From the IMG/VR virus record IMGVR_UViG_3300025853_000489, positions 1 to 28,748 of that record: a stretch of DNA of 28,748 nt. One strand, given 5' to 3'. This DNA comes from a virus. The notes below the pieces were generated by a model that saw only the letters and a program-made list of their open reading frames with translations, ran no database searches and was not told the origin of the DNA. How positions within the stretch are numbered: position 1 is the first letter of the stretch; each line of letters opens with the position of its first letter. This document shows, in pieces, positions 12,486-27,058 of this stretch. The position numbers were made by a program, and so were the translations under genes.

Positions 12486-12496
12486 GGAGAAAAACA

Positions 12497-12958
12497 ATGG
12501 GTGCCTTACTTGGAAGCAATTTTGGAAGCGCTGTAGACCCTTCTAAAGCTAAGTATGATCTTGACACTGGCGAACCAGAAAACTTAGAAGCTCTTAAATT
12601 AGACGCAGAGTATGATCCTGAAACAGGAGAGCCGGTAAACGAATCTGCTAAAAAACTAGAACAAATGTTTGAGGAAGAATCAGAAGGCTTTGATCTAAAA
12701 AAATATACTGACATTTTAAGTGAAAGTGACTTTGTAAGCTCTGGTAAACCTACGTCAAATCGTCCATTGTTTACACAGCGTCCAGAAAGCGGTCCAAGAG
12801 TTCCAACGGGCAGCGTGAGCTACCGACCAACTCAAAGCCCTTACCAAGTACCCAGCTACCTGATGAGTTCAGCGCAGTACAACGAACAGATTTCCAAGAT
12901 GCTCGGCGGCTTGCTGTCTAGGAGCATCCGCAGCAACCCCATTAAACTTCTGGTGTGA
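12497..12958 (+). CDS. Acidic virion-region protein with a tandem 19-residue repeat
   Basis: 153 residues, SD AAGGAGAAA. Residues 20-38 and 39-57 are tandem copies of a YD-(D/E)TGEP-N motif. The rest is acidic to about residue 75, then disordered and Pro/Ser-rich, ending with a short amphipathic helix (MLGGLLSRSIRS). It sits among ejection-type genes and may be a linker or assembly partner. No family is recognised. Confidence 0.6.
   Translation: MGALLGSNFGSAVDPSKAKYDLDTGEPENLEALKLDAEYDPETGEPVNESAKKLEQMFEEESEGFDLKKYTDILSESDFVSSGKPTSNRPLFTQRPESGPRVPTGSVSYRPTQSPYQVPSYLMSSAQYNEQISKMLGGLLSRSIRSNPIKLLV
12554..12667 (+). repeat. Tandem 57-base coding repeat (2 copies)
   Basis: Copies at 12554-12610 and 12611-12667 both start TATGATC(C/T)TGA and encode YD-(D/E)TGEP followed by a helical end (ALKL/AKKL). 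The protein copies are more alike than the DNA, so the duplication is old and held by selection on the peptide. Confidence 0.65.
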
Positions 12959-12966
12959 GATAGATT

Positions 12967-14310
12967 ATGGCTGAACAGCGTAATAGCGGACTTTTAAGTC
13001 AGGGTACGGGCCTTGATCCGTTTATAAACCGTTTCAAACAGGCGTATGAACAGCAGGGCGCATTGGGCGCTATTGCGCAGGCTGGTGGGGGTCTTCTAGA
13101 CCTTTTACAGCTGGGCGGCACTATGGCTGTTAACGAGGCTCTTCCAATTCTATATGGTCCAGAAGAGGCAAAGCGACGTCGCTTAGAAATACCATACCTT
13201 GAAAGAAGTGCCACGGCCAGAGAAATGGCAGACGTGGTGGCACGATCAGAGGGTCGCCTACCTCCTGTAAGAAGGCAGGATGTTCAAGCCATGCCCGGAC
13301 CTGCTCCTACAGGCAGGGTTGTTCCCTCTGTAGAACAGCGCGTAGCAGCAGACAGGGCTGAACGTGCAGAACTGGCTAGGCTTGGCCAAGTTGTAACTGC
13401 CGCTGCACCAATAGACAGAACAGACGGAAAGACGGGAGCAGAGGTTTATATGCAGGAAGCTGCTCGTCTCAGGGAGGCGGAGAAGCAGCAAGAAGCAGCC
13501 GCACTGAAACAAAAAATAGACCGGGATAACGCAACTGGCACCCCCAACATTATGCCGTATGTTTTAGCCGGTGATAATCAAGCACAAAATGCGCGTGAGC
13601 GTTCTTTCCTAGAGCGCATGGCTCAATCAGGTCTGTTGTCTACCCTACAGGGCATGGCACGTGCAGAGCGCCAGTACGGCGTTGGTCCTTTGGCTGCGTT
13701 CAGTGAGTCTGCTCTGGATGTACAGGCCGCTAGGAGTGCTGCTGAGCAGGAGGCAGCAAAGAGACAGTCTGAGGGAGCAGATCGACAAGCTAAGATACTT
13801 GCGGAGCAGATTAAAAAGTCTGGTCCTTCCAAACTTACTGGACCTATAGACAAAAGACTGACTTCGTTTAGAAACAATTCAGAAGCTCTGAACACAATAA
13901 ACAGATATCTAACAATTCTGACATCTGGTCAGACAGGTGGTATAGCTGGTAAAATGGATTCAGGTATTGACGCTCTTGCCTCTTTGGTTGGCCTAGGCTC
14001 TGGTAGTCAGGCGTCCAAAGCTGAAGCAGCCAGATCGTTATTGTTGTCTACAATAAGCAGCCTGAAACAAACTGAAGGCCAGATTTCTAAATATGATTAT
14101 GAAGAAATCGAAAACTATCTTAAAAAGCCAAATTCTTGGTTTATCAACAACGAAAAAATAGCAAACCAGCTTAGAAATCTAAGGCCAGTAATTCAGAGAA
14201 CTCTGTCGCAAGATGCAACGCTCATACGAGAATCAGGACGCGATCCGGCAAAATACAGCGGATACGATAATATCAAATTGTCTACTCCCGGCAGGACTAT
14301 AAACGAATAG
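12967..14310 (+). CDS. Putative internal virion (ejection) protein, 447 residues
   Basis: The N-terminal part has a hydrophobic Gly/Ala stretch (residues about 33-60, GALGAIAQAGGGLLDLLQLG) able to enter membranes. The centre (150-300) is a charged Ala/Gln/Arg coiled coil (AARLREAEKQQEAAALKQK, then AAEQEAAKRQSEG). The C-terminal 130 residues look globular and helical (LNTINRYLTILTSG, then YDYEEIENYLKKPNSW). Ejection proteins combine such coils and membrane-active segments. Position between two similar genes supports the reading. No named domain. Confidence 0.6.
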   Translation: MAEQRNSGLLSQGTGLDPFINRFKQAYEQQGALGAIAQAGGGLLDLLQLGGTMAVNEALPILYGPEEAKRRRLEIPYLERSATAREMADVVARSEGRLPPVRRQDVQAMPGPAPTGRVVPSVEQRVAADRAERAELARLGQVVTAAAPIDRTDGKTGAEVYMQEAARLREAEKQQEAAALKQKIDRDNATGTPNIMPYVLAGDNQAQNARERSFLERMAQSGLLSTLQGMARAERQYGVGPLAAFSESALDVQAARSAAEQEAAKRQSEGADRQAKILAEQIKKSGPSKLTGPIDKRLTSFRNNSEALNTINRYLTILTSGQTGGIAGKMDSGIDALASLVGLGSGSQASKAEAARSLLLSTISSLKQTEGQISKYDYEEIENYLKKPNSWFINNEKIANQLRNLRPVIQRTLSQDATLIRESGRDPAKYSGYDNIKLSTPGRTINE

Positions 14311-14318
14311 GAAAAAAC

Positions 14319-17300
14319 GTGGCTCAAAAGCAAATATACACTTTGTATAACGGCATGGAAGTAAAACTTCCTGTCGGTCTTTCTCAAGACGAAGCTGACA
14401 ACCTGATTGCCAAAGCTCTTCCGGGAGTTGCGCTGGGTGCTGGTACTTTCTACGATCTTGAAAAAGAGTTTGACATCTCTTCAAGCGTGGACAATGCTGG
14501 TCTTCGCTTTGATCTTGCATTGGCCAAAGATAATCCAAAAGAGGCCAAGGCTGTTCTGGACGCCCGTCTGGGCAAAGACGGATGGGGTCTAAGCGATTTT
14601 GGTGAGTTTTATGCCAATCCTATCGGTCTTCGTCGTCTCGGTATGGAGCCTAAAGACAACCGAAAAGTTTTGATAGACGGTATAAGCAACAATGTCTACG
14701 ATCTTGTAGACCTTGTGCCAGAGATTGCCACTGGTGTTGGCGCTTTGGCCGCTGAATTGTTAGTACCAGTGCCGGGAACGGGTGCAGCCGGTGCGGCCGC
14801 CGTGGGAGGCTTCCTGTCGTCCTTTACCGCAAGACAATTGGTGGCTAGATCAGTAGCAGCGGGAGCAGGAGATGTAACTGCTAATCTTGGTCTGGAAGCC
14901 GTTCAGACATACCGTGGTAATCAATACGAAGACCTTGGTGAAATACTCTCCGATGCTGGAACACAAGGCGCAGTGGTTGCAGCAGCGTCTCTGGGTCTTG
15001 GTCTGCCGTTCACGGCTATTGCTCCAGTGGCAGGCAAGATCAAAAACGTAGCAAAAGAGAACATAGACAACGTAACTACGAACCAAGGTATAGCGGTTAC
15101 CGCTGAGTCTGCAAAACAGGCAAGGCAGGAAGCTGTTGACTTCCTCAGAGCGCAGGGCGTTCCTGAAAATGAAATACAAGACATTGTCCCATTGATCACA
15201 TTGAAACACCAGCTTGGCGACTCTGGTAACCTGTTTGCCAAGTTTGCTATTGTCTCTGAAGGCGCTGGCGCAAAGAACTTGGCCGATAGTCTTCCGGCAA
15301 AGGGTCTGGAGTTTCTGGACAAGATCGACAGTTTCTTCAGGCAGGGACAGGCCGCTGGCAGAAACCCTGCGGAAATTGCAAAACAGCTTAGAGAAACCTT
15401 GACCCAAGCAGAGCTACAAACTGCTAAAAACATACAGAAGGAGATTGACACTGCCTATAAGCAGATGTCCAAAACATCTGTGCAGAGAGACAGGGCGGAA
15501 ATAGGAGACTTGATAGAACTTCAGGCCAACAACCAGTTGCGCTACATGATGAAGAACTTTGACGAGTCTCCTGAGCTATATGCAAGCCCTGATCTAGACC
15601 TTGACAATCTGTACAAGACAACGGTAGACGGCGATCTTGTTGCAGACTTGATTAACAAATTGTCCGGGGAGTATTCTAGGGGTGCTGAGGACGTAATAGC
15701 TATTCTCAATAAGACCTCTAATGGTTTAGGAGATCGTCTTCAGAAAGTTATAGACATCGAGGACGGATTTGCCGTTGCGAAAAAGGCAGACGAAGCTATT
15801 AGTGAACTGGACGACCTGATAACAGAGATTGGTCTGGGGAAAGGTTTTGCAGCCGATCTAGCGGCCTATACTAATAGGTCCTCTAAGGAAGCCAAAGAAG
15901 AGATCGCGTCTGTGACTGCCAGAGACCTATACGAGCTTGATCGAGCTATCCGACAGAACATCTACAAAGGCAGGCTGGATCGTAACGGTATAAGAGAGGG
16001 CGTCATAGCTTCCAAAGAAATCTTGGACACCATGGACGAGATTGTAAGCCCTGACTTCTCTGCCACTTTCCGCCAAGTCAACGCTGACTATAAAAAGGCA
16101 ATCGCACCGTTTGCCAAGGGTCTGGGCAAATTTGAAAACAGTACCGCCCAGACAGTTCCAGAGTATGTCAAAGACCTTGTTACCGGACGTAAGACGCAGG
16201 TGTTTGCTGAGCTTGTAGAAACCCTAGACGACATGCTGACTGGCATTGAAAAGGCTGGTGGCAAAGCTGCCAACGTTATGAGCGCAGACGAGGTCTTGGG
16301 GGAAGTTGCCACCCAGTACATGCGGTATCATAGAGACAGGTTTAATCTCACTAGGGCAAGCCTAGACACAGACGATATCCCTACGCTGCGTCAGAATGCC
16401 AGAGAAGCCCTCAAACAGATTGACGATCTGAAAAACAGAGAGACAACTCCCAGAGCTAAGAAGGCATTTAACAGGCTGTTTAACAACCAAGCGTTTACAG
16501 AGTACAGGAAAGCTCTAGAAAGCCTGTCTAAGGGCAATGTACGCGCAGCGGAAAAGCTCAAGATGCAGCTGAGCTACGAAGAGGCTGGTCAGTTTGTAGA
16601 CAACATTGCCAAACTTGGTCGCAACCTGAGAGACGCTGATCTGGATACAGCTGTTGAGCAGTACCGGGCTATCAAGGCCATTGAGCCAAGAGGCACCGAC
16701 TTTTATAACCTGATGCTCTACTCTGAGATTTTTGATCGCGTTAAGAAGATAGCGGGACAGAACCCCCAGACGAGAAACCAAGCTCTTAAAGCATGGGCCG
16801 ACGATATCGTTGCTGCCAATAACGTATCTCCGGCTGCGCTGAAAGAGCTTCTGGGCAGCGGCAAGGAGGGGACCAAAGACCTGTACAAGCCGCTTATGCA
16901 GATGGCCAATGTGATACAGGGTGGCTTCAACCTTGATCCCACGGCTGGTGCTATCAGTGCAGCGGGACAGCCTCTGATGGGCATACGTGGTCTGATAAAC
17001 TTCTCAGCTGGAGCAGCATTGAAACCAGTTGTGTTCATGGGGATGCTCAAGTCGTATGCCCCCGGTGGTCGCTCTTGGAAGGCTGTTAATGCTGCGATCA
17101 ATGGTGGAGAGAGCATAGAGCAGGTGGCCAAAAACTCAAAACTGAACAAGAATGCTCAAGTTGCCTTGAAAGCTGCAAACGCAGGCGCAGCCAAGATACT
17201 GGCAGGGAGAGATGGTCTGTTCGCAGCGTCGGTAGCAGCGTACATGAACGAGGCTGACGAAAGGCTACCAAACGAAAACACGCCGGTAGTTCCTGTCAGA

Positions 17301-17489
17301 CAGCGGACTGGGGCAGAGGCTGAGGCAGAGAGACAGGCTGAACAGCAGCAGCAACAGTCGGCTCTGTCTGCCGACACTGGTATAGCTGCAATACAGCAGA
17401 TTGCCAGCATGTTACAGCCGCAGCAGATACAAGGTGTAGGCACCTCCGGTCTTGAAGAGGGTGCTCAGATAGCAAGGAGTGCGGCCTGA
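14319..17489 (+). CDS. Giant internal virion (ejection) protein, 1056 residues
   Basis: GTG start at 14319, 8 bases after the preceding stop, with TAGGA as ribosome site. Residues 1-40 form a small domain (YTLYNGMEVKLPVGLSQDEA). An AVLDARLGKDGW motif follows near 79. Residues about 135-250 hold several Gly/Ala-rich hydrophobic helices (IATGVGALAAELLVPVPG) likely to insert in membranes. Residues 260-870 are long charged helices. Residues 900-980 have a second hydrophobic segment (GIRGLINFSAGAALKPVVFM), and the end is Gln-rich (EAERQAEQQQQQS). Podoviruses keep one such giant protein, the counterpart of T7 gp15/gp16, for DNA injection. No lysozyme or transglycosylase motif is seen. Confidence 0.7.
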   Translation: MAQKQIYTLYNGMEVKLPVGLSQDEADNLIAKALPGVALGAGTFYDLEKEFDISSSVDNAGLRFDLALAKDNPKEAKAVLDARLGKDGWGLSDFGEFYANPIGLRRLGMEPKDNRKVLIDGISNNVYDLVDLVPEIATGVGALAAELLVPVPGTGAAGAAAVGGFLSSFTARQLVARSVAAGAGDVTANLGLEAVQTYRGNQYEDLGEILSDAGTQGAVVAAASLGLGLPFTAIAPVAGKIKNVAKENIDNVTTNQGIAVTAESAKQARQEAVDFLRAQGVPENEIQDIVPLITLKHQLGDSGNLFAKFAIVSEGAGAKNLADSLPAKGLEFLDKIDSFFRQGQAAGRNPAEIAKQLRETLTQAELQTAKNIQKEIDTAYKQMSKTSVQRDRAEIGDLIELQANNQLRYMMKNFDESPELYASPDLDLDNLYKTTVDGDLVADLINKLSGEYSRGAEDVIAILNKTSNGLGDRLQKVIDIEDGFAVAKKADEAISELDDLITEIGLGKGFAADLAAYTNRSSKEAKEEIASVTARDLYELDRAIRQNIYKGRLDRNGIREGVIASKEILDTMDEIVSPDFSATFRQVNADYKKAIAPFAKGLGKFENSTAQTVPEYVKDLVTGRKTQVFAELVETLDDMLTGIEKAGGKAANVMSADEVLGEVATQYMRYHRDRFNLTRASLDTDDIPTLRQNAREALKQIDDLKNRETTPRAKKAFNRLFNNQAFTEYRKALESLSKGNVRAAEKLKMQLSYEEAGQFVDNIAKLGRNLRDADLDTAVEQYRAIKAIEPRGTDFYNLMLYSEIFDRVKKIAGQNPQTRNQALKAWADDIVAANNVSPAALKELLGSGKEGTKDLYKPLMQMANVIQGGFNLDPTAGAISAAGQPLMGIRGLINFSAGAALKPVVFMGMLKSYAPGGRSWKAVNAAINGGESIEQVAKNSKLNKNAQVALKAANAGAAKILAGRDGLFAASVAAYMNEADERLPNENTPVVPVRQRTGAEAEAERQAEQQQQQSALSADTGIAAIQQIASMLQPQQIQGVGTSGLEEGAQIARSAA

Positions 17490-18055
17490 TGGTAGATTTT
17501 TTCAAGGAGTTTAACCAAGCTGCCCAGAAACAAGGCGCTGCGCCTGTAGTAGACTACGCCAAAGAGCAGGCCATGAAAGGCGCTGCTGGTCTTGCTGCCA
17601 TGGGCGCTGCTGCCGCTCTTGGTCCGGAGAACATAGAGGAAATCCGACAGACAGGCAGGGACATAGACGACAGGTTTGGTCCTGACATACGATTGATGCG
17701 CGATCAGCTGCCAGAGGGCATGTCTCTGTCCGCACAGCCCAACTACCTAGACCCAATGGCCACCACTGTAACACCTAGCGTAGACCTGTCCGCTATCAGT
17801 CCCTATCTGCAAGGCCAAGCGCAGGCAACCATGGGCCAAGGTGGGCTACTTGGTTACAACATTGACGCACAGGTGCCAATGGGTGACTTTACCGGCACAC
17901 TGAACTATGGCCCACAAGGTGGTACAATGGGTGTCAACTATGCGCAAGATGGTTTCAGTGCTTCTGTTAATGCTCCTGTGCCTGAGCGAACCGCTAGCGT
18001 TAAAGGCTTGCTCGACAACATCACCGCAGGCTTCCGGTATACAAGCAGGTTCTAA
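17489..18055 (+). CDS. Small virion-region protein with hydrophobic N-terminal helix
   Basis: 188 residues, starting on the TGA of the giant gene (TGATGG). Residues 28-45 are a Gly/Ala hydrophobic helix (MKGAAGLAAMGAAAALG). Residues 60-75 are charged. The C-terminal 90 residues are Gly-rich with alternating beta-like pattern (LLGYNIDAQVPMGDFTG, LNYGPQGG, GVNYAQDGFSASV), resembling short porin-like hairpins. It may be the last of the ejected proteins. The function is not recognised. Confidence 0.6.
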   Translation: MVDFFKEFNQAAQKQGAAPVVDYAKEQAMKGAAGLAAMGAAAALGPENIEEIRQTGRDIDDRFGPDIRLMRDQLPEGMSLSAQPNYLDPMATTVTPSVDLSAISPYLQGQAQATMGQGGLLGYNIDAQVPMGDFTGTLNYGPQGGTMGVNYAQDGFSASVNAPVPERTASVKGLLDNITAGFRYTSRF

Positions 18056-18056
18056 G

Positions 18057-18677
18057 ATGCAAGAGATTTTCAAAATGCTTGAGCAGATGCGCCGAGAGAA
18101 CTACGGTGAGCCTATGCCCGCTAATCCTGCCGGTCTTCTTGGAGCGTCTCCTGCCCAAGCTGCGTCATCTTCTCCCGACCCGTTGCAGTCAATTATAAAC
18201 AGGACTCTACAGGAAGAGGGAGGATTTCAAAATAGAAAAGATGATAGGGGTAATTTTATAAATGGCCGTCTTGTCGGAACTAAATACGGAATAACTCCAA
18301 AAGCATGGGCAGAACATACAGGAATGCCTGCCAAAGACATAACGGAAGATACAATCAAAGGCTTAAACCTAGACCAAGCTCAGGAGTTTTACAGGAGTAA
18401 GGCCCAAAAAGAATTTAAGTTAGACAGGTATCCCGAAAACCTCCGGCCTCAGATTTTCGACATTATGACTAATTTTGGGTACACTGGCGGAATGAAAGTT
18501 TTACAAAGAGCCGCTGGAGTAGAGAAGGACGGCAGGTACGGTCCTAAGACAGCAGAGGCAATTAAAAATTTGTCTAATTCTAAACTTGCACAAGCTAGGT
18601 GGGACAGTTATTCAAAAGAACTAAAGAAAAAAAATCCGGGATGGAAGACGAGAACATTTAGTTTTGCGGTAGATTAA
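18057..18677 (+). CDS. Endolysin: GH108-type muramidase with peptidoglycan-binding end
   Basis: 206 residues from ATG 18057; the frame stays open further upstream, but that overlaps the previous gene by 150 bases. Residues 45-120 match the N-acetylmuramidase (GH108) domain: LQEEGGFQNRKDDRGNF with the catalytic Glu in the EGG motif (Glu53/54), then GTKYGIT and AW. Residues 130-175 fit the PG_binding_3 type end (PQIFDIMTNFGYTGGMKVLQ, then KDGRYGPKTAEAI). It cleaves the glycan backbone of peptidoglycan. The first 42 residues are an extra helix plus Ala/Ser/Pro linker, not a signal peptide. It opens the lysis cassette but also adjoins the ejection genes, so a virion-bound role is possible. Confidence 0.85.
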   Translation: MQEIFKMLEQMRRENYGEPMPANPAGLLGASPAQAASSSPDPLQSIINRTLQEEGGFQNRKDDRGNFINGRLVGTKYGITPKAWAEHTGMPAKDITEDTIKGLNLDQAQEFYRSKAQKEFKLDRYPENLRPQIFDIMTNFGYTGGMKVLQRAAGVEKDGRYGPKTAEAIKNLSNSKLAQARWDSYSKELKKKNPGWKTRTFSFAVD

Positions 18678-18678
18678 A

Positions 18679-19041
18679 ATGGAAGGCGGTATCGACATAC
18701 GGCTGGTGGTCACCATTGCCGGTATCCTGTTCAGCGTGGCAGGAGCCAGTGCGGTGGCCAAGATGCAGATCAAGGACATCATTGAAAAGATGGCCGACAT
18801 GGAGAAGCGTCTGCGCCAGATGGACTCACGTGGTGACAAGTTGGTCACAGCCACGGAGACACAGGAACAGAGAATCAGTGTATTGGCAAAGATGGCCAGC
18901 CCTGAGAACCTGCGCAGAGATCACATGCAATTAGCAGAACTTTTGACCACAGTCAAGCAACTTGAAAAATCTTATGACCGACTTTATTCCATGCACAATG
19001 GCAAACATCCGCCTGTATCAGACGTAAGAAAGGCAGACTGA
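18679..19041 (+). CDS. Membrane-anchored coiled-coil lysis protein (inner-spanin-like)
   Basis: 120 residues. One N-terminal membrane helix (residues about 8-27, RLVVTIAGILFSVAGASAVA) is followed by a long charged coiled coil (IKDIIEKMADMEKRLRQMD, then LAELLTTVKQLEKSYDRLY). A type II anchored periplasmic coil next to endolysin and holin is the layout of inner-membrane spanins. No outer-membrane partner lipoprotein was found in or beside it. It overlaps the next gene by one base (TGATG). A holin-regulator role is the alternative. Confidence 0.6.
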   Translation: MEGGIDIRLVVTIAGILFSVAGASAVAKMQIKDIIEKMADMEKRLRQMDSRGDKLVTATETQEQRISVLAKMASPENLRRDHMQLAELLTTVKQLEKSYDRLYSMHNGKHPPVSDVRKAD

Positions 19042-19484
19042 TGGGTATACCCTTTGAACTGATCACCATGCTAGGCTCTGGGCTGCTGTCCGGGGTAATG
19101 ACACTGTGGAGCCAGAACCAGAAGGCCAAGCAGGACGCATTCAACAGGGCCATAGATGGTCTTGCTGCGCAGTCACAGGCCACGGACTTGGCCCGCAGGT
19201 ACGAGAACAAAGGCTTCCAAGTTACCCGCAGGATCATTGCCCTGATGGCTGTGTTTGCTGTGATTGTCTGGCCAAAGGTGGTGGCAGTGTTCTGGCCTGA
19301 GATACCTGTCAACGTTGGCTACACTGAGTTTAATCCCGGTGCGCTGTTTGGTATTTTTGAGGGATCAGAAGAGATCAAGTGGCAGAGCCTGAAAGGCTTG
19401 GTCCTGACACCGCTGGATACACATTTGCTCAGCGCGATCATCGGGCTGTACTTTGGTGCTTCAATGGTAAAGAATGCGAGATAA
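19041..19484 (+). CDS. Holin, 3-TM family
   Basis: 147 residues with three membrane segments: about 8-23 (ITMLGSGLLSGVMTLW), 64-85 (RIIALMAVFAVIVWPKVVAVFW) and 127-142 (THLLSAIIGLYFGASM). A charged amphipathic stretch (QNQKAKQDAFNRAIDGL, then ARRYENKGFQVTRR) lies between the first two. This is the pattern of the GTA/phage holin_3TM family. Holins collect in the inner membrane and open it at the lysis time. It follows endolysin and the coiled-coil anchor gene, completing the cassette. Confidence 0.8.
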   Translation: MGIPFELITMLGSGLLSGVMTLWSQNQKAKQDAFNRAIDGLAAQSQATDLARRYENKGFQVTRRIIALMAVFAVIVWPKVVAVFWPEIPVNVGYTEFNPGALFGIFEGSEEIKWQSLKGLVLTPLDTHLLSAIIGLYFGASMVKNAR

Positions 19485-19486
19485 AA

Positions 19487-19777
19487 ATGTTTGGATATAA
19501 CCCATATGGATATGGTCTGCTGTCTCAGATGCCCATGCAGCAGGCTCCGCAAATCGTTCAGCAACCGCTGCTGAGTGCTGCCCGTGGCATAGGATCGTCC
19601 TTGCCAGACTACGCTACGCAACAGCTTCCACAAAATACTCCGGTTCAGAGCACCCTTCTTGGGCCTATCTTTGCAGCGATGCCGCAAATTATGCAAAACT
19701 TGCCAGACCTTCCCAGAGGCGGGCTTCTTGGGCTAGCTATAAATGCTCTTAAAGATGAGATAGCAAGGAGGGGCTAA
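19487..19777 (+). CDS. Last + strand gene, small Pro/Gln-rich hydrophobic protein
   Basis: 96 residues from ATG 19487, 2 bases after the holin stop. An upstream in-frame start would overlap the holin gene by about 100 bases and is not preferred. The product starts MFGYNPYGYGLL, has a Gln/Pro-rich middle and a hydrophobic C-terminal helix (GLLGLAINALKDEIARRG). The function is unknown; a lysis accessory or minor virion protein is possible. Its stop codon lies inside the hairpin at 19770-19788. There is no strong ribosome site, so translation may be coupled to the holin. Confidence 0.55.
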   Translation: MFGYNPYGYGLLSQMPMQQAPQIVQQPLLSAARGIGSSLPDYATQQLPQNTPVQSTLLGPIFAAMPQIMQNLPDLPRGGLLGLAINALKDEIARRG

Positions 19778-19814
19778 CCGTTGGCCCCCCACGGGTGTAT
19801 TACGGCACCACCCG
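19770..19814. terminator. Convergent-junction hairpins, likely bidirectional terminator
   Basis: Two stems lie where the opposing gene blocks meet. GGGGC(T)AA at 19770-19777 pairs with TT(G)GCCCC ending at 19788, with a 3-base loop and one G-T pair. CGGGTG (19792-19797) pairs with CACCCG (19809-19814). Neither is followed by a U-tract, so termination may be Rho-assisted or partial. Being inverted repeats they can act in both directions. Confidence 0.55.
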
Positions 19815-19818
19815 ATAG

Positions 19819-20238
19819 TCAGCTAAGTTCTATCTGCCTAGCCTTCTTTTCTTCCGGTACTTCCCGTACCAGTTTGATGCGCAGGATACCGTCGTTCAGA
19901 CCAGCATCCTGTACATTTACATGCTCGCCCAATAGAAACAGCTTCTTGAACGGGCGGAACGCAATGCCTCCATATATAATCTCGGCATCCTTGTCTTCAT
20001 GTTTGACACCGTTGGACGTAACAGACAGAATGTCTTCCTTTACGTGAACGGAAATGTCCTCCTTCTTAAATCCGGCAACGGCCATGGTGATCTCATAGCT
20101 GTCTTCCCCCAGCTTTACAACGCTGTGCGGTGGGAAGTTCTGGTTGCCTGACATTACTTCTGCAACCTTGTGCATATTGTCAAACAGGCGCTCAAATCCA
20201 AGAGCAGAGTCCGATATGGACGGGAACATAATAGTCAT
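19819..20238 (-). CDS. Small heat shock protein (Hsp20 / alpha-crystallin family)
   Basis: 139 residues, usual length for bacterial IbpA-type chaperones. The alpha-crystallin domain spans about residues 36-127, with ITMAVAGFKKEDISVHV, a GGIAFRPFKK loop and the signature GILRIKLVREVPEEKKA near the end. The N-terminal arm (FERLFDNMHKV) is typical. It holds unfolding proteins without ATP. Similar genes occur in T4-like cyanophages. It is the last gene of the - block but has its own promoter (20292-20320) and a structured leader that can hide its ribosome site, so temperature control is likely. Confidence 0.92.
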   Translation of the reverse strand: MTIMFPSISDSALGFERLFDNMHKVAEVMSGNQNFPPHSVVKLGEDSYEITMAVAGFKKEDISVHVKEDILSVTSNGVKHEDKDAEIIYGGIAFRPFKKLFLLGEHVNVQDAGLNDGILRIKLVREVPEEKKARQIELS

Positions 20239-20242
20239 TTGT

Positions 20243-20261
20243 TTCTCCCAATTGGCAAGAA
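20243..20261 (-). promoter_or_regulatory. ROSE-like RNA thermometer hairpin over the hsp20 ribosome site (candidate)
   Basis: Read on the - strand the RNA has UUCUU-G-CC (20261-20254), loop AAUU (20253-20250), then GGGAGAA (20249-20243), 4 bases before AUG. CC pairs with GG, the G at 20256 is bulged, then UUCUU pairs with the rest of the SD: one U-G, three A-U, one C-G. ROSE elements have a UYGCU strand opposite the SD with this same bulged G. Here UUGCC faces GGGA, so the outer pair changes on both sides. Weak pairs should melt with heat. Confidence 0.55.
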
Positions 20262-20264
20262 TTA

Positions 20265-20285
20265 GAGGCCCAGGATTGGCACCTC
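20265..20285 (-). other. 5' leader hairpin of the hsp20 transcript
   Basis: On the - strand GAGG (20285-20282) pairs with CCUC (20268-20265), and CC (20279-20278) pairs with GG (20270-20269), with a 2-base bulge and a 7-base loop. It begins at the transcription start expected from the promoter at 20292-20320. A stable 5' hairpin ahead of the SD hairpin is usual in ROSE leaders. Confidence 0.4.
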
Positions 20286-20291
20286 AAAAAA

Positions 20292-20320
20292 AGTATACCA
20301 CAAAACCATAGGTTTGTCTA
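20292..20320 (-). promoter_or_regulatory. Sigma70-type promoter for hsp20
   Basis: On the - strand TAGACA (20320-20315) and TATACT (20297-20292) are 17 bases apart, each one base off the consensus. The expected start is near 20285, giving a 47-base leader. The TAG of the upstream oxygenase gene is the first half of the -35 box. The spacer starts AACCTATG, nearly the same as in the promoter at 5167-5195. It lets hsp20 be transcribed apart from the long replication operon. Confidence 0.8.
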
Positions 20321-20878
20321 CCTAAATGGTGGACCCCATGCCCAGCCGGTCAGGCTATATCGCACACCTTTGATAACAGGCTGTACCCTGTGGTAGTAGT
20401 AAGACGGGAAGATCACGATCTTGCCTGCTCTTCTCAAGGCAGGCTCAGGGATCACGCGCTTCCTGTACGGAGCACTGGGAGACCCCCAGCTGAACTGAAA
20501 GTCTCCCCCTTCGTAGTCTTCATTGAGCACAACGTTGAACGTCAGCTTGCGGCATTTGTTCCCCGGCTGCACATCGTGGTGCCACCCGTACCTCTCCTGC
20601 ATAGTGTACTTGCTCAGCTGTAGGTTCTCTAGCTCGGTCAGGTCAAACAGCCAACCCATCTCAAAGTTGGCCGTCTGAACCCAATCAAAGACAATCGACC
20701 TGAACTTCTCGTCTTCCAAGGCATAGATGGAATTGTTTCTGATCTGTGTCTTTGTCTGACCGTCTAGCACCTGTGCCTCCTGCTCTTCGAAGTTCTGGCT
20801 CAGCTGCATAACAGCTTTGCAGAACTCCTCCGGCATGTCAGGCACTGAGCCACCAGAGTAGTAGATGTCACCGTACAT
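20318..20878 (-). CDS. 2-oxoglutarate/Fe(II)-dependent oxygenase (PKHD-type)
   Basis: 186 residues. The iron facial triad is visible: His100-x-Asp102 in YGWHHDVQPG and the distal His163 in IFPSYYYHRV. Arg173 (GVRYSLTGW), ten residues on, fits the 2-oxoglutarate carboxylate. Between them lie FNVVLNEDYEGGDFQF and the IVIFPSY strand of the double-stranded beta-helix. This matches the prolyl-hydroxylase-like family common in cyanophages and other marine phages. Substrate is unknown: protein side chains or modified nucleic acid bases are both possible. It overlaps the preceding small gene by 11 bases, so it belongs to the replication operon. Confidence 0.88.
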   Translation of the reverse strand: MYGDIYYSGGSVPDMPEEFCKAVMQLSQNFEEQEAQVLDGQTKTQIRNNSIYALEDEKFRSIVFDWVQTANFEMGWLFDLTELENLQLSKYTMQERYGWHHDVQPGNKCRKLTFNVVLNEDYEGGDFQFSWGSPSAPYRKRVIPEPALRRAGKIVIFPSYYYHRVQPVIKGVRYSLTGWAWGPPFR

Positions 20879-20984
20879 TCTTACCAGCTTCCCTGATCTG
20901 GTCTAGTGTACGCCCACAGCCTGTGCAGTAGGTCTTTGTCTGATCCAGCTTGCACTGCTTCTTACACACCGCAACTTCCTCCAT
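20868..20984 (-). CDS. 38-residue DUF1289 four-cysteine protein
   Basis: The frame from ATG 20984 overlaps the RNR end by 23 bases and the oxygenase start by 11. The product has C-KKQ-C at residues 7-11, then eight residues to C-TG-C (residues 20-23), followed by GRTLDQI. That C-x3-C-x8-C-x2-C plus GRTLDEI pattern is the DUF1289 signature of small proteobacterial proteins, thought to bind metal. The final Trp of the family is missing. The function is unknown. Phage copies may accompany the iron enzyme downstream or the RNR. Confidence 0.75.
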   Translation of the reverse strand: MEEVAVCKKQCKLDQTKTYCTGCGRTLDQIREAGKNVR

Positions 20985-22644
20985 GTCCGGTGATGTCACA
21001 GATGTCGTGGGTTTCAATTGACTCTTCAAACTCTTCTCCAAGTTTATCGGCAGCTTCAGTGTAAGGCACACTGCTAAGAGGCTGTCCCCCTCTGCATCCG
21101 TCCGGATACACGGTGAAACCACGCAGCCTGTGAGCATAGCTGGCAAGAGCATCGGCAAAATCATCGACCGTATCTTCATTGTTCAGCTTGCTCCCCCACT
21201 GGGGCAGATTGATCGTGCTACTGATAGACATATCTACGTAGTCTTGGACATCTGCTTGAAACTTCAACCTGCGCCGGTAGTCCTCGGCCAAGTCCAGTGC
21301 GGACTCGATGTTGTCAGGCTTGACACCGTACAGGTCAATGATCTCTTGCGCTGCGCTGTCTACAACGTACTGGTAGTGCCACTTGTTTCCGCCCTTCAAA
21401 TATCTGCGCTTGTACGCCACGGCAAAGATAGGCTCCACACCAGTGCTAGTGCCAGCAAGAATGCCAATGCTGCCAGTAGGGGCAATAGCCCGATTAGCAA
21501 CAGGACGACTAATTGAAAGCAGGTCAGCCATTGTACGGCTAGTGTCGTCGCTGATGCCTTGATAGACAGCCAGCCACTTATGAAGCTCGTCGGTAACTTC
21601 ATACTTACTTCCCTTTTTGATCAGCCATTCGTGCATACCCATCAGGCCAAGGCCCAGCCTGCGGTTCTTTTCGCGCGTCTTATAGACAGCCTCATAGGGC
21701 AGCTTGGCTTTCAACGTGCCGCAGATCAGGAACTTGGTTGCCAACTCTACGATCTGACTGAACTCTTTCAGATCGTCAACGCGACCAAGGTTGATACTAC
21801 CAAGATTGCACACGTCACTGTCGTCAGCACTTGTGACCTCTGTGCAGGCGTTACGTAGGGTCTCGTTCTCCTTGTCGAAGAAGTTGAAACTGAATCCCGG
21901 CTCAGCTGTTCTAAGAGCTTGACGTACATTAGTCCTAAAGACATCCCCAACTTCTCCGGTCTTCCAGTAGTTCAACAGCCACTCTGTGTCATAGTTGACA
22001 CTGATCTTAGTCATGTCCAGCGGTGCATGGAAGTTAAAGTCCTGCTCCTTGACTTGACCAACACTGAACCCAGTTGATCCTACCGGCATGTCGTACCAGT
22101 TCTTGCTGGCCAAGAACGTCTCCACGTCCCTGTGCTTCCAGTTCAGGCTGGCATAGATGGCAGACCTGCGGCTCCCTCCCTGCATGACCCTGCGTCCGAT
22201 CTCGTTGATCATCTGCATCTTGGGGATAGGACCACTGGCCAGCCCACCCGTCTTGCTCAGACCAGAACCCTCCGGACGATACACCGAGTAGTCAATACCG
22301 ATACCACCGCCCGTCATCAGACAGGACTCGGACTTCCAGCTAAGGTTTGCCCAGTCCTCCCGACTGTCCTCCTCTGCCCGGAGCAGGTAGCAGTTGTTAA
22401 AGAACTTGTTTGGTCTCCCAGCATAGTACAGGTAGCGACCACCGGGGATAAACTTCAAGTCCCGGATGATCTCTGTCAGTGCTTCCACCTCGTCGTCTTT
22501 CAGCACCCCCTTGCAGACATCCTCTGCCAGCGTCTTGGCCAAGTCGGACCACGTGTAGCAGCTTTGGTGTGCGTACTTCTGTTTGAAGATGTCCTCGCTG
22601 AACTTGCTACGGAACATCGGATTTTCATTGCTCTTAAAAGTCAT
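20962..22644 (-). CDS. Ribonucleotide reductase, class II (adenosylcobalamin-dependent) type
   Basis: 560 residues. It reduces ribonucleotides to deoxyribonucleotides. Key residues: Cys85 in NNCYLL, the finger loop N265-A-C267-T-E269 with the thiyl Cys267, and Cys279 in VCNLGSINLG (redox partner). A PTGSIGILAGTSTGVEP loop lies at 389-405, and a C-terminal Cys pair (549 and 558) serves re-reduction. The end of the barrel reads SISSTINLP and GFTVYPDGCRGGQPL, the class II pattern, and the YY pair that relays the radical in class I is not seen. No ATP-cone precedes it, and neither a small subunit nor an activase is in the window. It overlaps neighbours by 11 and 23 bases. Confidence 0.88.
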   Translation of the reverse strand: MTFKSNENPMFRSKFSEDIFKQKYAHQSCYTWSDLAKTLAEDVCKGVLKDDEVEALTEIIRDLKFIPGGRYLYYAGRPNKFFNNCYLLRAEEDSREDWANLSWKSESCLMTGGGIGIDYSVYRPEGSGLSKTGGLASGPIPKMQMINEIGRRVMQGGSRRSAIYASLNWKHRDVETFLASKNWYDMPVGSTGFSVGQVKEQDFNFHAPLDMTKISVNYDTEWLLNYWKTGEVGDVFRTNVRQALRTAEPGFSFNFFDKENETLRNACTEVTSADDSDVCNLGSINLGRVDDLKEFSQIVELATKFLICGTLKAKLPYEAVYKTREKNRRLGLGLMGMHEWLIKKGSKYEVTDELHKWLAVYQGISDDTSRTMADLLSISRPVANRAIAPTGSIGILAGTSTGVEPIFAVAYKRRYLKGGNKWHYQYVVDSAAQEIIDLYGVKPDNIESALDLAEDYRRRLKFQADVQDYVDMSISSTINLPQWGSKLNNEDTVDDFADALASYAHRLRGFTVYPDGCRGGQPLSSVPYTEAADKLGEEFEESIETHDICDITGHGGSCGV

Positions 22645-22813
22645 TGCAGTCCACCGGCCTCAAGTTGAATTTATCTAGGTTGTCTTCTACGTACTCACGG
22701 AAGAAGTCTAACAGTGTGAGCGAGTCAATGTCAAGCAAGTCAATGATCTGCTCACAGCTGTACGCATCCGCTATGTCTCTCAGCTGTTCTTCAGAAAGTA
22801 TGGCCACTGGCAT
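22634..22813 (-). CDS. Small acidic protein upstream of RNR, unknown function
   Basis: 59 residues from ATG 22813, behind GGGGGAGA, overlapping the nuclease end by 23 bases and the RNR start by 11. An upstream in-frame start would extend it inside the nuclease gene without a ribosome site. The product is a short acidic helical protein (EEQLRDIADAY, then EQIIDLLDIDSLTLLDFFREY, then EDNLDKFNL). The DLL-I----LLD-F--Y--DN pattern recurs in small proteins of the replication region of marine podoviruses. The function is unknown. Confidence 0.65.
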   Translation of the reverse strand: MPVAILSEEQLRDIADAYSCEQIIDLLDIDSLTLLDFFREYVEDNLDKFNLRPVDCNDF

Positions 22814-23615
22814 TCTCCCCCGGCTCCACAAGGAACACCGGGCGTCCAGACCTGAACTTGGTCTCAAACTTCTCCCAGCACGTGTGCTTGTGAGAACAAT
22901 ATGAACAATTGACGCCCAGCTTCTTGCCTCCGCTAGGTCGGTCATGTACCGGCTCAAAAGCCCGCTCAGGCGGTTCTGGCTGCGATACGGCCTTCTTGAT
23001 CTCTGCGATCTTCATCTCCGTGTTCTCCAGCTGGGAGTGCGTATACGTGGCAAGCTCTCCGCTGGACTTGTCAAAGGCCAAGAACGTACCACGGGTCTTG
23101 CCTAGTGCGTTACCATAGCCGCTGATCTGGCTGATATACCCAAAGGCATCGTCATCGGGCAGTGTACCGTTCTTGAACTTCTTCATGCTGTACGACGAGG
23201 CGGACTTGATATCGACCAACTCGTCGTCTATGAAGCAGTCGATATGCCCCTTGATCCCATCGACCTCGATCTCTGCTTGCTGGTTCGAGACATGATGACC
23301 AGCTTCTTTAGCAAGGTAGATCAACAGTGCCTCAACGATGTCACCGATCATGAACTTCAACCGGGTCTGTGGGCTGAAGTCTTCTGCTTGATCGTCGCCG
23401 TTGATGTCGTACCACAGAGAGCGAGAACACGGCTTGCCAATGTTAGACATCCGCAGCCTTGGCTTGGACTCTGCCGTCCCCATCCACAGTTGTCTCCGCA
23501 CTGCGTCCATCACCGTGCTGCCTAGGGCGAACAACGCCTCTTGGTCTGGATTCTTGGTTCCTTGGTCTACCAGCTGATAGATGTCATCTACCAGTGTGTC
23601 AATTGTCTTCGTCAT
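22791..23615 (-). CDS. Cas4-like PD-(D/E)XK exonuclease with four Cys
   Basis: 274 residues. Nuclease motifs appear in order: GDIVEAL with Glu95, GHIDCFID with Asp126, LVDIKSA with Asp135-Ile-Lys137, and GYISQISGYGNAL with Gln163 and Tyr167. Four cysteines (63, 237, 240, 246, the last three as C-x2-C-x5-C) match the iron-sulfur clasp of Cas4/AddB-type nucleases. In podoviruses such an enzyme can fill the role of T7 gp6 exonuclease: host DNA degradation, primer removal and recombination. No Cas1/Cas2 or repeats are near, so a CRISPR role is not suggested. It starts 17 bases inside the preceding gene. Confidence 0.85.
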   Translation of the reverse strand: MTKTIDTLVDDIYQLVDQGTKNPDQEALFALGSTVMDAVRRQLWMGTAESKPRLRMSNIGKPCSRSLWYDINGDDQAEDFSPQTRLKFMIGDIVEALLIYLAKEAGHHVSNQQAEIEVDGIKGHIDCFIDDELVDIKSASSYSMKKFKNGTLPDDDAFGYISQISGYGNALGKTRGTFLAFDKSSGELATYTHSQLENTEMKIAEIKKAVSQPEPPERAFEPVHDRPSGGKKLGVNCSYCSHKHTCWEKFETKFRSGRPVFLVEPGENASGHTF

Positions 23616-24213
23616 ATTTCACCTTTACAATGTTTTTGTGACGCTTTGCTTTTCCGTTCTTAACCTTACTGAGTTCAGATTGATTGTACCCATGACACTC
23701 AGCGAACTCTCTCATGGACATGTCCGTGACCCTGTGTTGAACACCGTTGTCATAAGTGATGGTAAACGGTCCTAGGTACTTTGGGTTGTTGATGCCCCGC
23801 AGCTTGTCCCTGAACTCTTCGCCATAACTCTTGACTGGTCTGAAGAAACGCTTGCCACCGATGTTCTTGTTATAGAAGTTATCGTCTTCAAGAACATTCA
23901 GATCGACCTGCATCTTCATCTCGTTGTAGTACAGGTCACGCTTGTTTCTACATAACAACAAAATTGCAAAGGTGAACTGCTTCTTTCCAAGTTTGGCTAT
24001 CAATGGTGCCAACTCCTTGGAACTTGAGCTATAGTACCTCCAGTTGCTCTCCGTTGTACGCTTTCCCCGACTGGTTCTGTATAGGTGCTTGCATCCTATG
24101 TAGCTTTTGCCTGACTCCTTGTGGGTGATGCGGTAGACAAATCCAAAATGGTCTCCCGGATTGAACTCGCCTACCGCATCTATGTCCCAATGTCCGTACT
24201 TAGAACGGGACAT
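23599..24213 (-). CDS. GIY-YIG endonuclease (SegE-like) with C-terminal DNA-binding region
   Basis: 204 residues. Residues 23-45 hold the GIY-YIG pair (GFVYRIT and KSYIGCKHLY). Next come NWRYYSSSSKEL and LGKKQFTFAILL, then Glu98 in LYYNEMKMQ as the likely metal ligand, and FYNKNIGGK at 113-121. The C-terminal part (MREFAECHGYNQSELSKVKN, GKAKRHKN) looks like a helix-turn-helix end that binds DNA. The position between SSB and exonuclease, with 14- and 17-base overlaps, is where T7 has its Holliday-junction nuclease. A resident recombination nuclease is therefore more likely than a mobile homing gene, though both are possible. Confidence 0.8.
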   Translation of the reverse strand: MSRSKYGHWDIDAVGEFNPGDHFGFVYRITHKESGKSYIGCKHLYRTSRGKRTTESNWRYYSSSSKELAPLIAKLGKKQFTFAILLLCRNKRDLYYNEMKMQVDLNVLEDDNFYNKNIGGKRFFRPVKSYGEEFRDKLRGINNPKYLGPFTITYDNGVQHRVTDMSMREFAECHGYNQSELSKVKNGKAKRHKNIVKVKYDEDN

Positions 24214-24646
24214 CGTCGTTCAGATCATCCTTCTTGGTATCTTTACCGAAAGACTGATCGCTGTTGTCTCCCACGTACTCAATGGGATCAGTGATCTTCA
24301 CAGCGTTCAGGAACGTGGTAACGCCCGTGCCGTACTTATTGTTGTACGGCTTCTGGCTCACGCGCACAGCTGCTTTTGATCCGTTAGACAACATCCGTGG
24401 GCCTGTGTAGTCCTTGCCGTCAGCATCGAACAGCTTAGGCTCATAGTTGCTCTTCAGCTGGACATAGGGCAGGCCATCCATCTTGCCCTCCTCCTGCTTG
24501 ACGTTCAAGCCTAGCTTACGGGCTTGGGCAAGCTGGTCTCCCTCCAAGGCCAAGGCAACCGAGTAGCGGTCGAACTTGTCTTTCACGTCGAACAGATAGG
24601 GGAAGTACATGATTCCTTCGAGGTAGTGTTGTGCATTAGCAGGCAT
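24200..24646 (-). CDS. Single-stranded DNA-binding protein
   Basis: 148 residues from ATG 24646, which overlaps the polymerase stop by one base (TAATG). Beta-strand-rich OB-like core (YFPYLFDVKDKFDRYSVALA, then LPYVQLKSNYEPKLFDADG) and an acidic C-terminal tip KDDLNDDVPF. The acidic aromatic tip is the partner-binding tail of T7 gp2.5-type proteins, which recruit polymerase and helicase. Its coding bases also encode the start of the GIY-YIG gene. It coats single-stranded DNA at the replication fork and should promote annealing. Confidence 0.85.
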   Translation of the reverse strand: MPANAQHYLEGIMYFPYLFDVKDKFDRYSVALALEGDQLAQARKLGLNVKQEEGKMDGLPYVQLKSNYEPKLFDADGKDYTGPRMLSNGSKAAVRVSQKPYNNKYGTGVTTFLNAVKITDPIEYVGDNSDQSFGKDTKKDDLNDDVPF

Positions 24647-26295
24647 TAATGTATCTCGCTCCAGTTGTTTCCGATTTGTACGTCGCAGTCTAGCTGGCAA
24701 CGTAGTTTGTACGCCTTGTTGACCTGACGTATAGATAGTATAACACAATCTCTGGCAAGGTCAACATCTTTAGCATCACTTTCTATAACTAATTCGTCAT
24801 GCACCATGGCTACGATCTTGGCATCTGCTTGTCTCCTTCTCAGGTGATAATCAACGTACATAAACCACTTCTTCATCAGGACGGCGCTAGAGCCTTGGAT
24901 CAGGGTGTTCAGGCTGGCGTGTCCTGATCTGACCCTGAGAACTCTGCCGTCTAGTCCTTTCAGCTTGCCGACTGATTCTCCCTTGTGTATGACCGCTTCG
25001 CTCAGCCTCTTATATGCTGGCATGTTTGCCATAAATCGCGCCCTAAGTTGAGCACCATCTTTGGCAGAGCCGTTGACCACCGCTCCGATCTTTGCGTCTC
25101 CTGCTCCATAGAGAAGCGCATAGATGAACGTCTTAGCTTGGTCTCTAGTCTCCAGACCAGCCATCTGTTGGTTAGCAGTATGTACATCGCCCTCAAGTAT
25201 TTCACGTGTGAACCTCTCATCATCCATATAGTGTGCCAGCACCCGTAGCTCTAGGCCAGCTGCGTCTGTGTCTAGCAGCTTCCTGCCCTGCGGGGCTTCG
25301 AACAACTCTCTACAATCTTTGCCATACTCCACGCGCACAGCTGGAACCTGTTGCAGGTTGGGACTGACGCAACTCATACGGTTAGTGATAGCCCCTAGTG
25401 TGCGATACCTGCAATGCACCCTAGACTCCGCTGAGCAGGCTTCGATCCATGCCTTGACCAGTGCAGACCGCTTCTGTAGCAGAAAGTATCTGGCCAGCTT
25501 CTGTGCCACGGGCAGACTGCACTTGGATAGTGTCTTCTCGTCTACCTTTGCCCTGCCGCTGGGCGTTAGCTCCGTGGGTTTCCAACCTAGCTCGATCAGG
25601 CGCTCTGCGATCTGCTGTCTGCTTGCCGGGTTGAACTCCGTGACCTTGTCCTTCAGACGCTTGCCCGTCTTCTCCGAGTATCTCTCCTGTACAATCGGTG
25701 GGAACATGCTGACGCACTCGGCTGCGATCCGGTCCTGTTCAAGCGCCAGCCTGTTATAAAGCTCAACGGCCTTGTGCTTGTTCAGACCAAAACCATTGCC
25801 GCTCACCCGGTCAGCAACGATGCGCATCCTGTGCTCGTCCCTGATCGACTGTTCGCTGAACTCGTCCTCCATCTCTGCCCATAGTGTCCAATGCAGGTGC
25901 ATACATACCTTCACGTCTTGGATGCAGTAGTCTCGCATCTCATCCGTGTACCTGCTAAAGTCCCCACTGAACTCGGCCTTGTGTTTGCCTAGGCGTTTGC
26001 CCCATGCGTCAAGGCTGTGCCCTCCCTCCCGTGACGGGTTCTCCATCATGGACAGGACCAGTGTGTCCACCATCTGGTCGAACTTCAGCCGGACACCCCA
26101 TAGCTTGGCCAGCACAGGGAAGTCAAAGCTCAGCCCGTTGTGCGCAACCACCTCTTGGAACTTATCAAGATAGTCCTGTAGACCGTCGGCCTGTGTCCAG
26201 ACCCTGATGCCAACATCCGAGTCAAAGGTGACCACGCAGTGTATCACACTGGCATCAAGGCTGTCGGTCTCTATGTCTAGGTAGCAGGCTCTCAC
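24646..26295 (-). CDS. DNA polymerase, family A (T7 gp5-like) with 3'-5' exonuclease
   Basis: 549 residues from GTG 26295, which shares GTGA with the ThyX stop and has GGAAG 5 bases upstream. Another GTG at 26331 adds 12 residues without a good ribosome site. Exonuclease motifs: DIETDSL (Asp7, Glu9), AHNGLSFDF (Asp58) and YCIQD (Asp127). Polymerase motifs: A DTDAAGLELR (Asp342, Asp344), B RDQAKTFIYALLYGAG (384-399) and C VHDELVIE (His499, Asp500). The residue matching E. coli Pol I Phe762 is Tyr392, as in T7. This favours fast, faithful synthesis and is linked to virulent phages. No uracil- or helicase-fusion domain is present. Confidence 0.95.
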   Translation of the reverse strand: MRACYLDIETDSLDASVIHCVVTFDSDVGIRVWTQADGLQDYLDKFQEVVAHNGLSFDFPVLAKLWGVRLKFDQMVDTLVLSMMENPSREGGHSLDAWGKRLGKHKAEFSGDFSRYTDEMRDYCIQDVKVCMHLHWTLWAEMEDEFSEQSIRDEHRMRIVADRVSGNGFGLNKHKAVELYNRLALEQDRIAAECVSMFPPIVQERYSEKTGKRLKDKVTEFNPASRQQIAERLIELGWKPTELTPSGRAKVDEKTLSKCSLPVAQKLARYFLLQKRSALVKAWIEACSAESRVHCRYRTLGAITNRMSCVSPNLQQVPAVRVEYGKDCRELFEAPQGRKLLDTDAAGLELRVLAHYMDDERFTREILEGDVHTANQQMAGLETRDQAKTFIYALLYGAGDAKIGAVVNGSAKDGAQLRARFMANMPAYKRLSEAVIHKGESVGKLKGLDGRVLRVRSGHASLNTLIQGSSAVLMKKWFMYVDYHLRRRQADAKIVAMVHDELVIESDAKDVDLARDCVILSIRQVNKAYKLRCQLDCDVQIGNNWSEIH

Positions 26296-26918
26296 AGGTA
26301 CTTCCAGCTGACAGGAAACTCTGTGGCACACGTTTCTGATATCTTCAATGCTACCTCTCTGGTCTCTTGCTGGGCGTCTGGTGCCAGCCTGAGCTTGCAG
26401 ACCCGGCTGAAGGCGTACAGGCTACCAGTCCAGTACCACTCGGTATACATGGACTGCGGCAGCACGGCACGTGCCTGCTCAGGACAGACGCCAAGCTCTA
26501 TCATGTTGTCATACGTGGTCACAGCGGTGCGCACGGCTTCGTCGTACATCTTGCTGACCAGCTTAGGGCTTTGCACGGCTTGATCCGTTGATCCCTGCTT
26601 CTTGTCGTCAGCTGCCTTGCGCCATTTGTCCGGGCTGTAACAGCTGGGCTGCTCACTGACATACCTGCGGCTGACCTCGTTCCAGACCAGACCAACTTGG
26701 TGCTTGGCCAGCTGTCTGGCAACGAACACAGGCGCTTTGATATGGAACTGCAAACTGGTGTGGGCAAAGGGGGACCAGTGCTGATGGTCTGCCAAGTACT
26801 TGATCAGCCGTTCGTCTCCCGGCTCCATCTGTAGGTGTACCTTGCTGAAGCTCACGCGAGCAGCATTGACCACGCTCAGGTCGCTGCCCATCTTGTCTAT
26901 CAATCCTACCTGTATCAT
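26292..26918 (-). CDS. thyX: Flavin-dependent thymidylate synthase ThyX
   Basis: 208 residues. It makes dTMP from dUMP using FAD and methylenetetrahydrofolate. The substrate region shows HWSPFAHTSLQFHI, VARQLAKHQVGLVWNEVSRRY and, near the end, LRLAPDAQQETREVA. The usual RHRxxSxNExSxRY signature is altered: KHQ (72-74) replaces RHR, the Ser is absent and one residue is added before NE. Asn80, Glu81, Ser83 and Tyr86 are kept. Such forms are known in marine phages as I recall. It couples with RNR to supply thymidine for replication. It overlaps neighbours by 4 bases on both sides. Confidence 0.92.
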   Translation of the reverse strand: MIQVGLIDKMGSDLSVVNAARVSFSKVHLQMEPGDERLIKYLADHQHWSPFAHTSLQFHIKAPVFVARQLAKHQVGLVWNEVSRRYVSEQPSCYSPDKWRKAADDKKQGSTDQAVQSPKLVSKMYDEAVRTAVTTYDNMIELGVCPEQARAVLPQSMYTEWYWTGSLYAFSRVCKLRLAPDAQQETREVALKISETCATEFPVSWKYL

Positions 26919-27058
26919 CCTTGTCCTCGCTGCTTTTTCTTCATGCCATAGAAGGGCGAACGCTTGCCTATCTTTTTCTTATGGTTGAACGGCCTAGGCT
27001 TGCGACGACGTTTGACCTTGGTCCTTGGGGTGTAGTTGTTCTCTGCTCTCTTGGCCAT
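26915..27058 (-). CDS. 47-residue Lys/Arg-rich protein
   Basis: The frame from ATG 27058 overlaps the primase-helicase stop (TGATG) and ends with TGA sharing ATGA with thyX. About 20 of 47 residues are Lys or Arg (KVKRRRKPRPFNHKKK in the middle, ending KKKQRGQG), with no hydrophobic segment. A nucleic acid-binding or host-RNA polymerase-interacting peptide is possible. Coupling at both ends supports expression. It resembles in charge, not in sequence, the micro-protein at 5964. Confidence 0.65.
   Translation of the reverse strand: MAKRAENNYTPRTKVKRRRKPRPFNHKKKIGKRSPFYGMKKKQRGQG

Follow-up and report, generated by a model that had tools for sequence, protein, structure and literature searches.

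The closest described counterparts of the element considered here are the ROSE-type RNA thermometers in the leaders of bacterial small heat shock genes. In the ibpA leader of Pseudomonas a two-hairpin ROSE element suffices for heat control, with the second hairpin melting while the first stays closed, and deletion of the G of the motif abolishes induction (PMC3669281). RNA thermometers are also known from phages, namely those of lambda cIII and the fourU element of SPbeta blyA (PMC10586365), and that of a sigma70 gene in Caudoviricetes (PMC11182007). Here we examine the leader of hsp20, a small heat shock gene in the 28,748-base viral record IMGVR_UViG_3300025853_000489 (the window, taken at its full length), in which leader and gene are read on the minus strand. 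Based on its anatomy, the conservation of that anatomy in other phages and the matches of covariance models, we propose that this leader is likely to be a short, two-hairpin RNA thermometer of the ROSE type and, on sequence grounds, we place it as a ROSE-like element from a divergent phage branch. The pairing of the Shine-Dalgarno (SD) sequence and the bulged Gs are conserved across the phage family, in which the element is nearly specific to hsp20.

The leader covers 47 nucleotides (nt), from 20285 to 20239 on the minus strand, and consists of two bulged-G hairpins lodged between a predicted promoter and the ATG of hsp20. Its parts, in the order of transcription, are:

20292 to 20320, minus strand: predicted sigma70 promoter of hsp20, with TAGACA at 20320-20315, a 17-nt spacer and the extended -10 element TGgTATACT at 20300-20292
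20265 to 20285, minus strand: hairpin 1, GAGGU(G)CCA[AUCC]UGG/GCCUC, with the bulged G at 20280; free energy at 37 C (dG37) of -8.3 kcal/mol; covariation in the clade and the family
minus strand: linker UAA between hairpins 1 and 2, and ACAA between hairpin 2 and the AUG, both read from the sequence
20243 to 20261, minus strand: hairpin 2, the predicted thermosensor, UUCUU(G)CC[AAUU]GG/GAGAA, with the bulged G at 20256; dG37 of -3.1 kcal/mol; matched by the R2 model and the shape descriptor described below
20243 to 20249, minus strand: the SD sequence GGGAGAA, read from the sequence, within hairpin 2 and 4 nt 5' of the AUG
19819 to 20238, minus strand: hsp20, coding for a small heat shock protein of 139 amino acids (PF00011, E 2e-15), with its ATG from 20238

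As the extended -10 promoter ends at 20292, transcription is predicted to start near G20285, where hairpin 1 begins. An earlier sequence-only reading of this locus had described two hairpins in a 47-base hsp20 leader, the second enclosing the SD with a bulged G and an AAUU loop 4 bases from the AUG, and both the sequence and the minimum free energy fold agree with it; the 52-base span that it assigned to the element (20239-20290) covers the leader, with five of its bases lying upstream of the predicted start. It had also depended on transcription not starting downstream of 20261, and the predicted promoter is consistent with this. When the leader is folded alone, the two hairpins constitute the minimum free energy structure from 20 to 45 C, with the outermost pair of hairpin 2 lost at 55 C and a melting point for hairpin 2 of about 57 C by nearest-neighbour energies. 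A stable hairpin 1 followed by a weak hairpin 2 is the rule throughout the family, with median dG37 values of -8.9 and -1.9 kcal/mol, as against -8.3 and -3.1 in the window; this parallels the Pseudomonas element, of which only the second hairpin melts. The window leader accordingly displays the traits of the ROSE type in belonging to a small heat shock gene and ending near its start codon, in having two hairpins of which the 3'-proximal one contains the SD, in the bulged G opposite the SD (G20256), and in the combination of a stable 5' hairpin with a weak SD hairpin.

We then examined relatives, confirmed by tblastn and drawn from IMG/VR and isolated phages. The two-hairpin layout was observed in several isolated phages (among loci L082-L094), including the Pelagibacter phages HTVC103P, HTVC115P, HTVC008M and Mosig, Methylophilales phage Melnitz-3, Agrobacterium phage Atu_ph07, Sinorhizobium phage Phosso, phage C48C1, and the cyanophages S-PM2, P-SSM4, S-CRM01 and Sf-FR1, along with S-TIM5, which carries a variant motif. 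This common anatomy holds in phages whose leader sequences otherwise defy alignment. Across 92 parsed leaders the anti-SD strand reads UUGCU in 63, UCGCU in 28 and ACGCU in one, such that UYGCU faces AGGAG in 91, and in 90 the bulged G of hairpin 1 is set in a YGY context. In the clade of the window, UUGCC or UCGCC stands opposite GGGAG, so that the last pair of the motif is altered on both strands, a double compensatory change that bears out the earlier suggestion that this outer pair had changed on both sides. Furthermore, the layout follows sigma70-like promoters as well as T4-type late ones (TATAAATA), which argues for a function at the level of the mRNA.

Alignments of mixed leaders with MAFFT (A1, A2, A4, A5 and A10) misplace the hairpins, and we used only the cleanly aligning subsets (A3 and A11) and models derived from them. 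In a clean alignment of 14 leaders from freshwater phages, 96.0% of the pair cells are standard pairs, as compared to 48-64% with slid partners, and eight of the 18 pairs are altered on both sides. Two model-fitted alignments, both biased towards the structure by construction, show 95.7% and 97.8% paired cells respectively, and the latter contains 152 double-change cells where shuffles average 37. Among members of the window clade, two pairs of hairpin 1 are changed on both sides. Covariation falls mostly in hairpin 1, since the SD strand limits what can vary in hairpin 2. Absence of conserved pairing among related leaders had been named beforehand as a possible refutation of the ROSE-like reading; instead, covariation accompanies the recurrence of this design, of the bulged G and of a compensated pairing between anti-SD and SD in about 100 phage hsp20 leaders, and this reading is thereby strongly supported at the sequence level.

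A covariance model (R2) built from nine leaders of other phage clades, with the clade of the window left out, provided a held-out test. R2 found exactly one match in the window up to E 10, at 20285-20236 on the minus strand (28.2 bits, E 2.2e-5), and matched eight of ten relatives from the window clade. Over 68 other viral loci it recovered the hsp20 leader in 63, with one weak off-target match. A second model (R1), built from a single freshwater clade, gave no match to the window. R2 also matched, in register, the Rfam-positive ROSE_3 leader of locus L095 and the proven thermometer leader of E. coli ibpA (11.9 bits, E 0.008 in 701 bases), the latter stretch being the same one that scores 100.4 bits with Rfam ROSE_2. 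In a metagenome-assembled genome rich in T4-like phage contigs (G024), six of seven further leader-model matches examined sit before hsp20. This bin and two others (L181 and L182), labelled as Gammaproteobacteria and Rhodobacteraceae, contain T4-like phage contigs with hsp20; with at least eight strong matches to the phage leader model, G024 is a mixture with many phages. One of its contigs (C219; L196, 4-63) has a leader with a hairpin 1 of like type but lacking a ROSE anti-SD motif, before a phage open reading frame of 89 amino acids distinct from hsp20, and hairpin 1 may be reused elsewhere.

The specificity of the arrangement was assessed with a parser for bulged-G hairpins, run on the real leaders and on shuffles preserving dinucleotides and the SD. 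None of 300 shuffles of the window leader yielded both bulged-G hairpins at equal strength, although hairpin 2 alone was matched in strength by about 3% of them, and the joint chance rate was at most 0.01 in every one of 54 leaders tested. A shape descriptor (a start codon preceded by two bulged-G hairpins, of which the second pairs an SD that contains GGA) was applied to every ATG, GTG and TTG on both strands; it was designed after the family had been seen, and hence its sensitivity is not independent evidence, while the scarcity of its off-targets is informative. It returned a single match in the window, at the hsp20 start, and 75 matches in related viral DNA totalling 568 kb, all but one at hsp20 starts, with two loci scoring at two adjacent start codons.

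In light of these observations we posit the following mechanism. A sigma70-type promoter of the phage's own would start transcription at the base of hairpin 1, as its conservation suggests, and hairpin 1 may act as a stable 5' cap and a folding guide. Hairpin 2 pairs the SD with the bulged-G UUGCC strand, as covariation and the model match show, and this would hold translation low at low temperature. By analogy to similarly built elements of Pseudomonas and E. coli that have been tested, warming would then loosen the weak hairpin 2, allowing ribosome binding and synthesis of the chaperone.

Several points weigh against this proposal. The heat response of the phage leader is one that we infer from tested bacterial elements, and the position of the transcription start is a promoter prediction. 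The anti-SD strand of the window reads UUGCC and departs from the ROSE-defining U(U/C)GCU, with the change of the SD from AGGAG to GGGAG compensating for it. Folding across temperatures, which the sequence-only reading had offered as a check, preserved both hairpins as noted above, but the computed accessibility of the SD in the leader alone rises only gradually, being 0.08 at 25 C and reaching 0.22 at 55 C; when 30-60 nt of coding sequence are included, the SD is taken up by a UUCCC within codons 5-7 and heat changes little. This computed opening is not decisive with regard to heat sensing because nearest-neighbour models leave out the non-canonical pairs known in ROSE. Finally, the window gave no match to the Rfam ROSE models, either at the gathering cut-off or up to E 10. 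The proposed covariance search thus failed with Rfam models on the window, but succeeded with the phage-trained R2 on the leader and with ROSE_3 (RF02523) on its relatives: end-to-end alignments were obtained for locus L014 (27.6 bits), Melnitz-3 (34.1 bits, E 6.7e-4), Atu_ph07 and C48C1, with all genuine phage scores, of which 34.1 is the best, falling below the gathering cut-off of 43 bits. Because the Rfam scans of the window are empty, the link to the ROSE family rests on the relatives and on our own models.

An alternative that we regard as possible rather than probable is that the leader is mainly autoregulatory, with free phage Hsp20 binding it and repressing its own translation until aggregates formed during infection titrate Hsp20 away and lift the block, perhaps alongside melting. 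In E. coli, IbpA acts through the ROSE leader to repress its own mRNA, and this requires R93 and an aromatic residue at position 34 (PMC10474464). With the IbpA numbering verified on MG1655 ibpA, an aromatic residue occupies the Y34 site in all 100 phage Hsp20s compared and arginine the R93 site in 93 of them (lysine in the other seven), the equivalents in the window protein being F35 and R95. The shape and bulged G of hairpin 1 are preserved throughout, which exceeds the needs of a simple cap. Many carriers are, moreover, marine, and the temperature of their hosts is probably nearly steady within a single infection. However, binding of the phage protein to the leader would be an extrapolation from E. 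coli IbpA; the conserved arginine may serve chaperone structure, and retention of IbpA's R97/K98 pair is partial, the window protein having K and L. As bacteria combine both modes, autoregulation would complement heat sensing more than replace it. A dual sensor across phages, in which the weak SD hairpin senses heat and Hsp20 of the phage itself binds to both bulged-G hairpins, can be tentatively entertained, though we lean against it; if it exists, chaperone output would track the load of unfolded protein in virion assembly as well as temperature, and the hosts (cyanobacteria and SAR11) may control their own hsp20 otherwise.

It is improbable that the hairpins do nothing beyond stabilizing the transcript, as a 5' stem-loop against RNases, and setting a constant low level of translation. 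Hairpin 1 is indeed stable and at the predicted 5' end, a protective role has been discussed for hairpin I of Pseudomonas (PMC3669281), and the computed heat-driven opening of the SD is modest; yet, pure stabilization leaves unexplained both the weak bulged-G SD hairpin with its near-invariant UYGCU and the restriction to hsp20. Folding is common in any single leader of such length, but chance hairpins are a negligible explanation in the face of the covariation, the exact and unique held-out match and the joint chance rates given above.

The hexamers of the hsp20 promoter and their 17-nt spacing are retained in the clade relatives L005-L011 while the spacer sequence varies. The hsp20 gene closes a minus-strand block encoding a T7-type primase-helicase, a family A DNA polymerase, ThyX and ribonucleotide reductase, with a 2OG-Fe(II) oxygenase directly upstream of hsp20, and plus-strand structural and lysis genes face it. 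The 3' end of the oxygenase gene (20318-20878, minus strand) falls within the -35 box of the hsp20 promoter, and a 2OG-Fe(II) oxygenase likewise adjoins hsp20 in Pelagibacter phage HTVC008M (L083). Amid the structural genes, an open reading frame of 1056 amino acids (14319-17489, plus strand) has very weak PHROG matches and is possibly an internal virion protein. Positions 12001-28748 of the window gave zero nucleotide matches to isolated phages. The nearest relatives of the polymerase are from Pelagibacter phages, and those of the capsid protein from uncultured Manatee Spring phages, followed by Pelagibacter and rhizobial phages, which suggests an alphaproteobacterial host. ROSE elements are native to alphaproteobacteria.

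Taken as a heat sensor, the leader implies that many aquatic phages probably control hsp20 with an unrecognized RNA thermometer. If true, an auxiliary gene that is common in phages would almost always carry one conserved RNA element, be it in cyanophages, pelagiphages, methylophages, rhizobial jumbo phages or many uncultured viruses, and the supply of a phage chaperone would be tied to temperature or protein stress in the ocean; Hsp20 of a cyanophage is an active chaperone in vitro (PMC5028025). The phage leaders also show that current Rfam models overlook a large, divergent branch of ROSE. The isolated phages offer a ready and checkable set of leaders, and UUGCC/GGGAG, a compensated form of the bulged-G core that occurs in nature, could be used to probe the requirements of the motif. 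The claim that a phage sensing heat through its own mRNA to make a chaperone had not been described needs narrowing, as phage thermometers are known, but a search of the full-text literature, with subscription journals outside its coverage, found neither ROSE on a phage gene nor a thermometer on a phage chaperone. The undescribed part thus appears to be the latter, together with its wide spread.

Comparison with known elements places the leader closest to ROSE_3 and the ROSE-like element of Pseudomonas ibpA, with which the phage leaders share two hairpins across about 50-70 nt of a small heat shock leader, a hairpin 1 of the GAUGCC..GGGUC type with a bulged G, and a hairpin 2 with a bulged G opposite the SD. 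They differ in being phage-borne, in lying behind phage sigma70-like or T4-type late promoters, in their sub-cut-off scores and, in the window, in UUGCC/GGGAG replacing UYGCU/AGGAG. Membership of the window in ROSE_3 itself was rejected, given its lack of a match and the scores of its relatives. Pseudomonas phage Y7 (OQ572409; L095) was not counted as a phage member, the record being unverified and its element scoring like a host ibpA leader; its ibpA-like gene, whose ROSE_3 element reaches a full score (69.2 bits), is probably a piece of bacterial host DNA within a record filed as phage. The ibpA leader of E. coli (ROSE_2, RF01832) has its last two hairpins and both bulged Gs in register with the phage model, but is bacterial and longer, with an extra upstream hairpin and a mostly different sequence. 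In MG1655 (L192, 5424-5478) the bulged G in the upstream one of these last two hairpins lies in GACCU(G)UCCA..GGAAGGUC, and a bulged G in hairpin 1 seems to be a common, little-discussed feature of these leaders. The recent ROSE variant termed ROSE-G likewise has a bulged-G anti-SD hairpin, but with CUGCU, an additional bulged G in the strand of the SD and a position before ABC transporter genes (PMC12857270), whereas the SD side of the phage hairpin has no bulge. A fourU thermometer was rejected, as the strand opposite the SD, UUCUU(G)CC, lacks UUUU. Like the thermometers already known from phages, whose heat response has been proposed or shown, this is a phage mRNA leader, here with a proposed heat response; those belong to other classes and other genes (a lysogeny regulator, an autolysin and a sigma factor) and are single cases, whereas the leader described here represents an element that is kept on a chaperone gene in different groups of phages.
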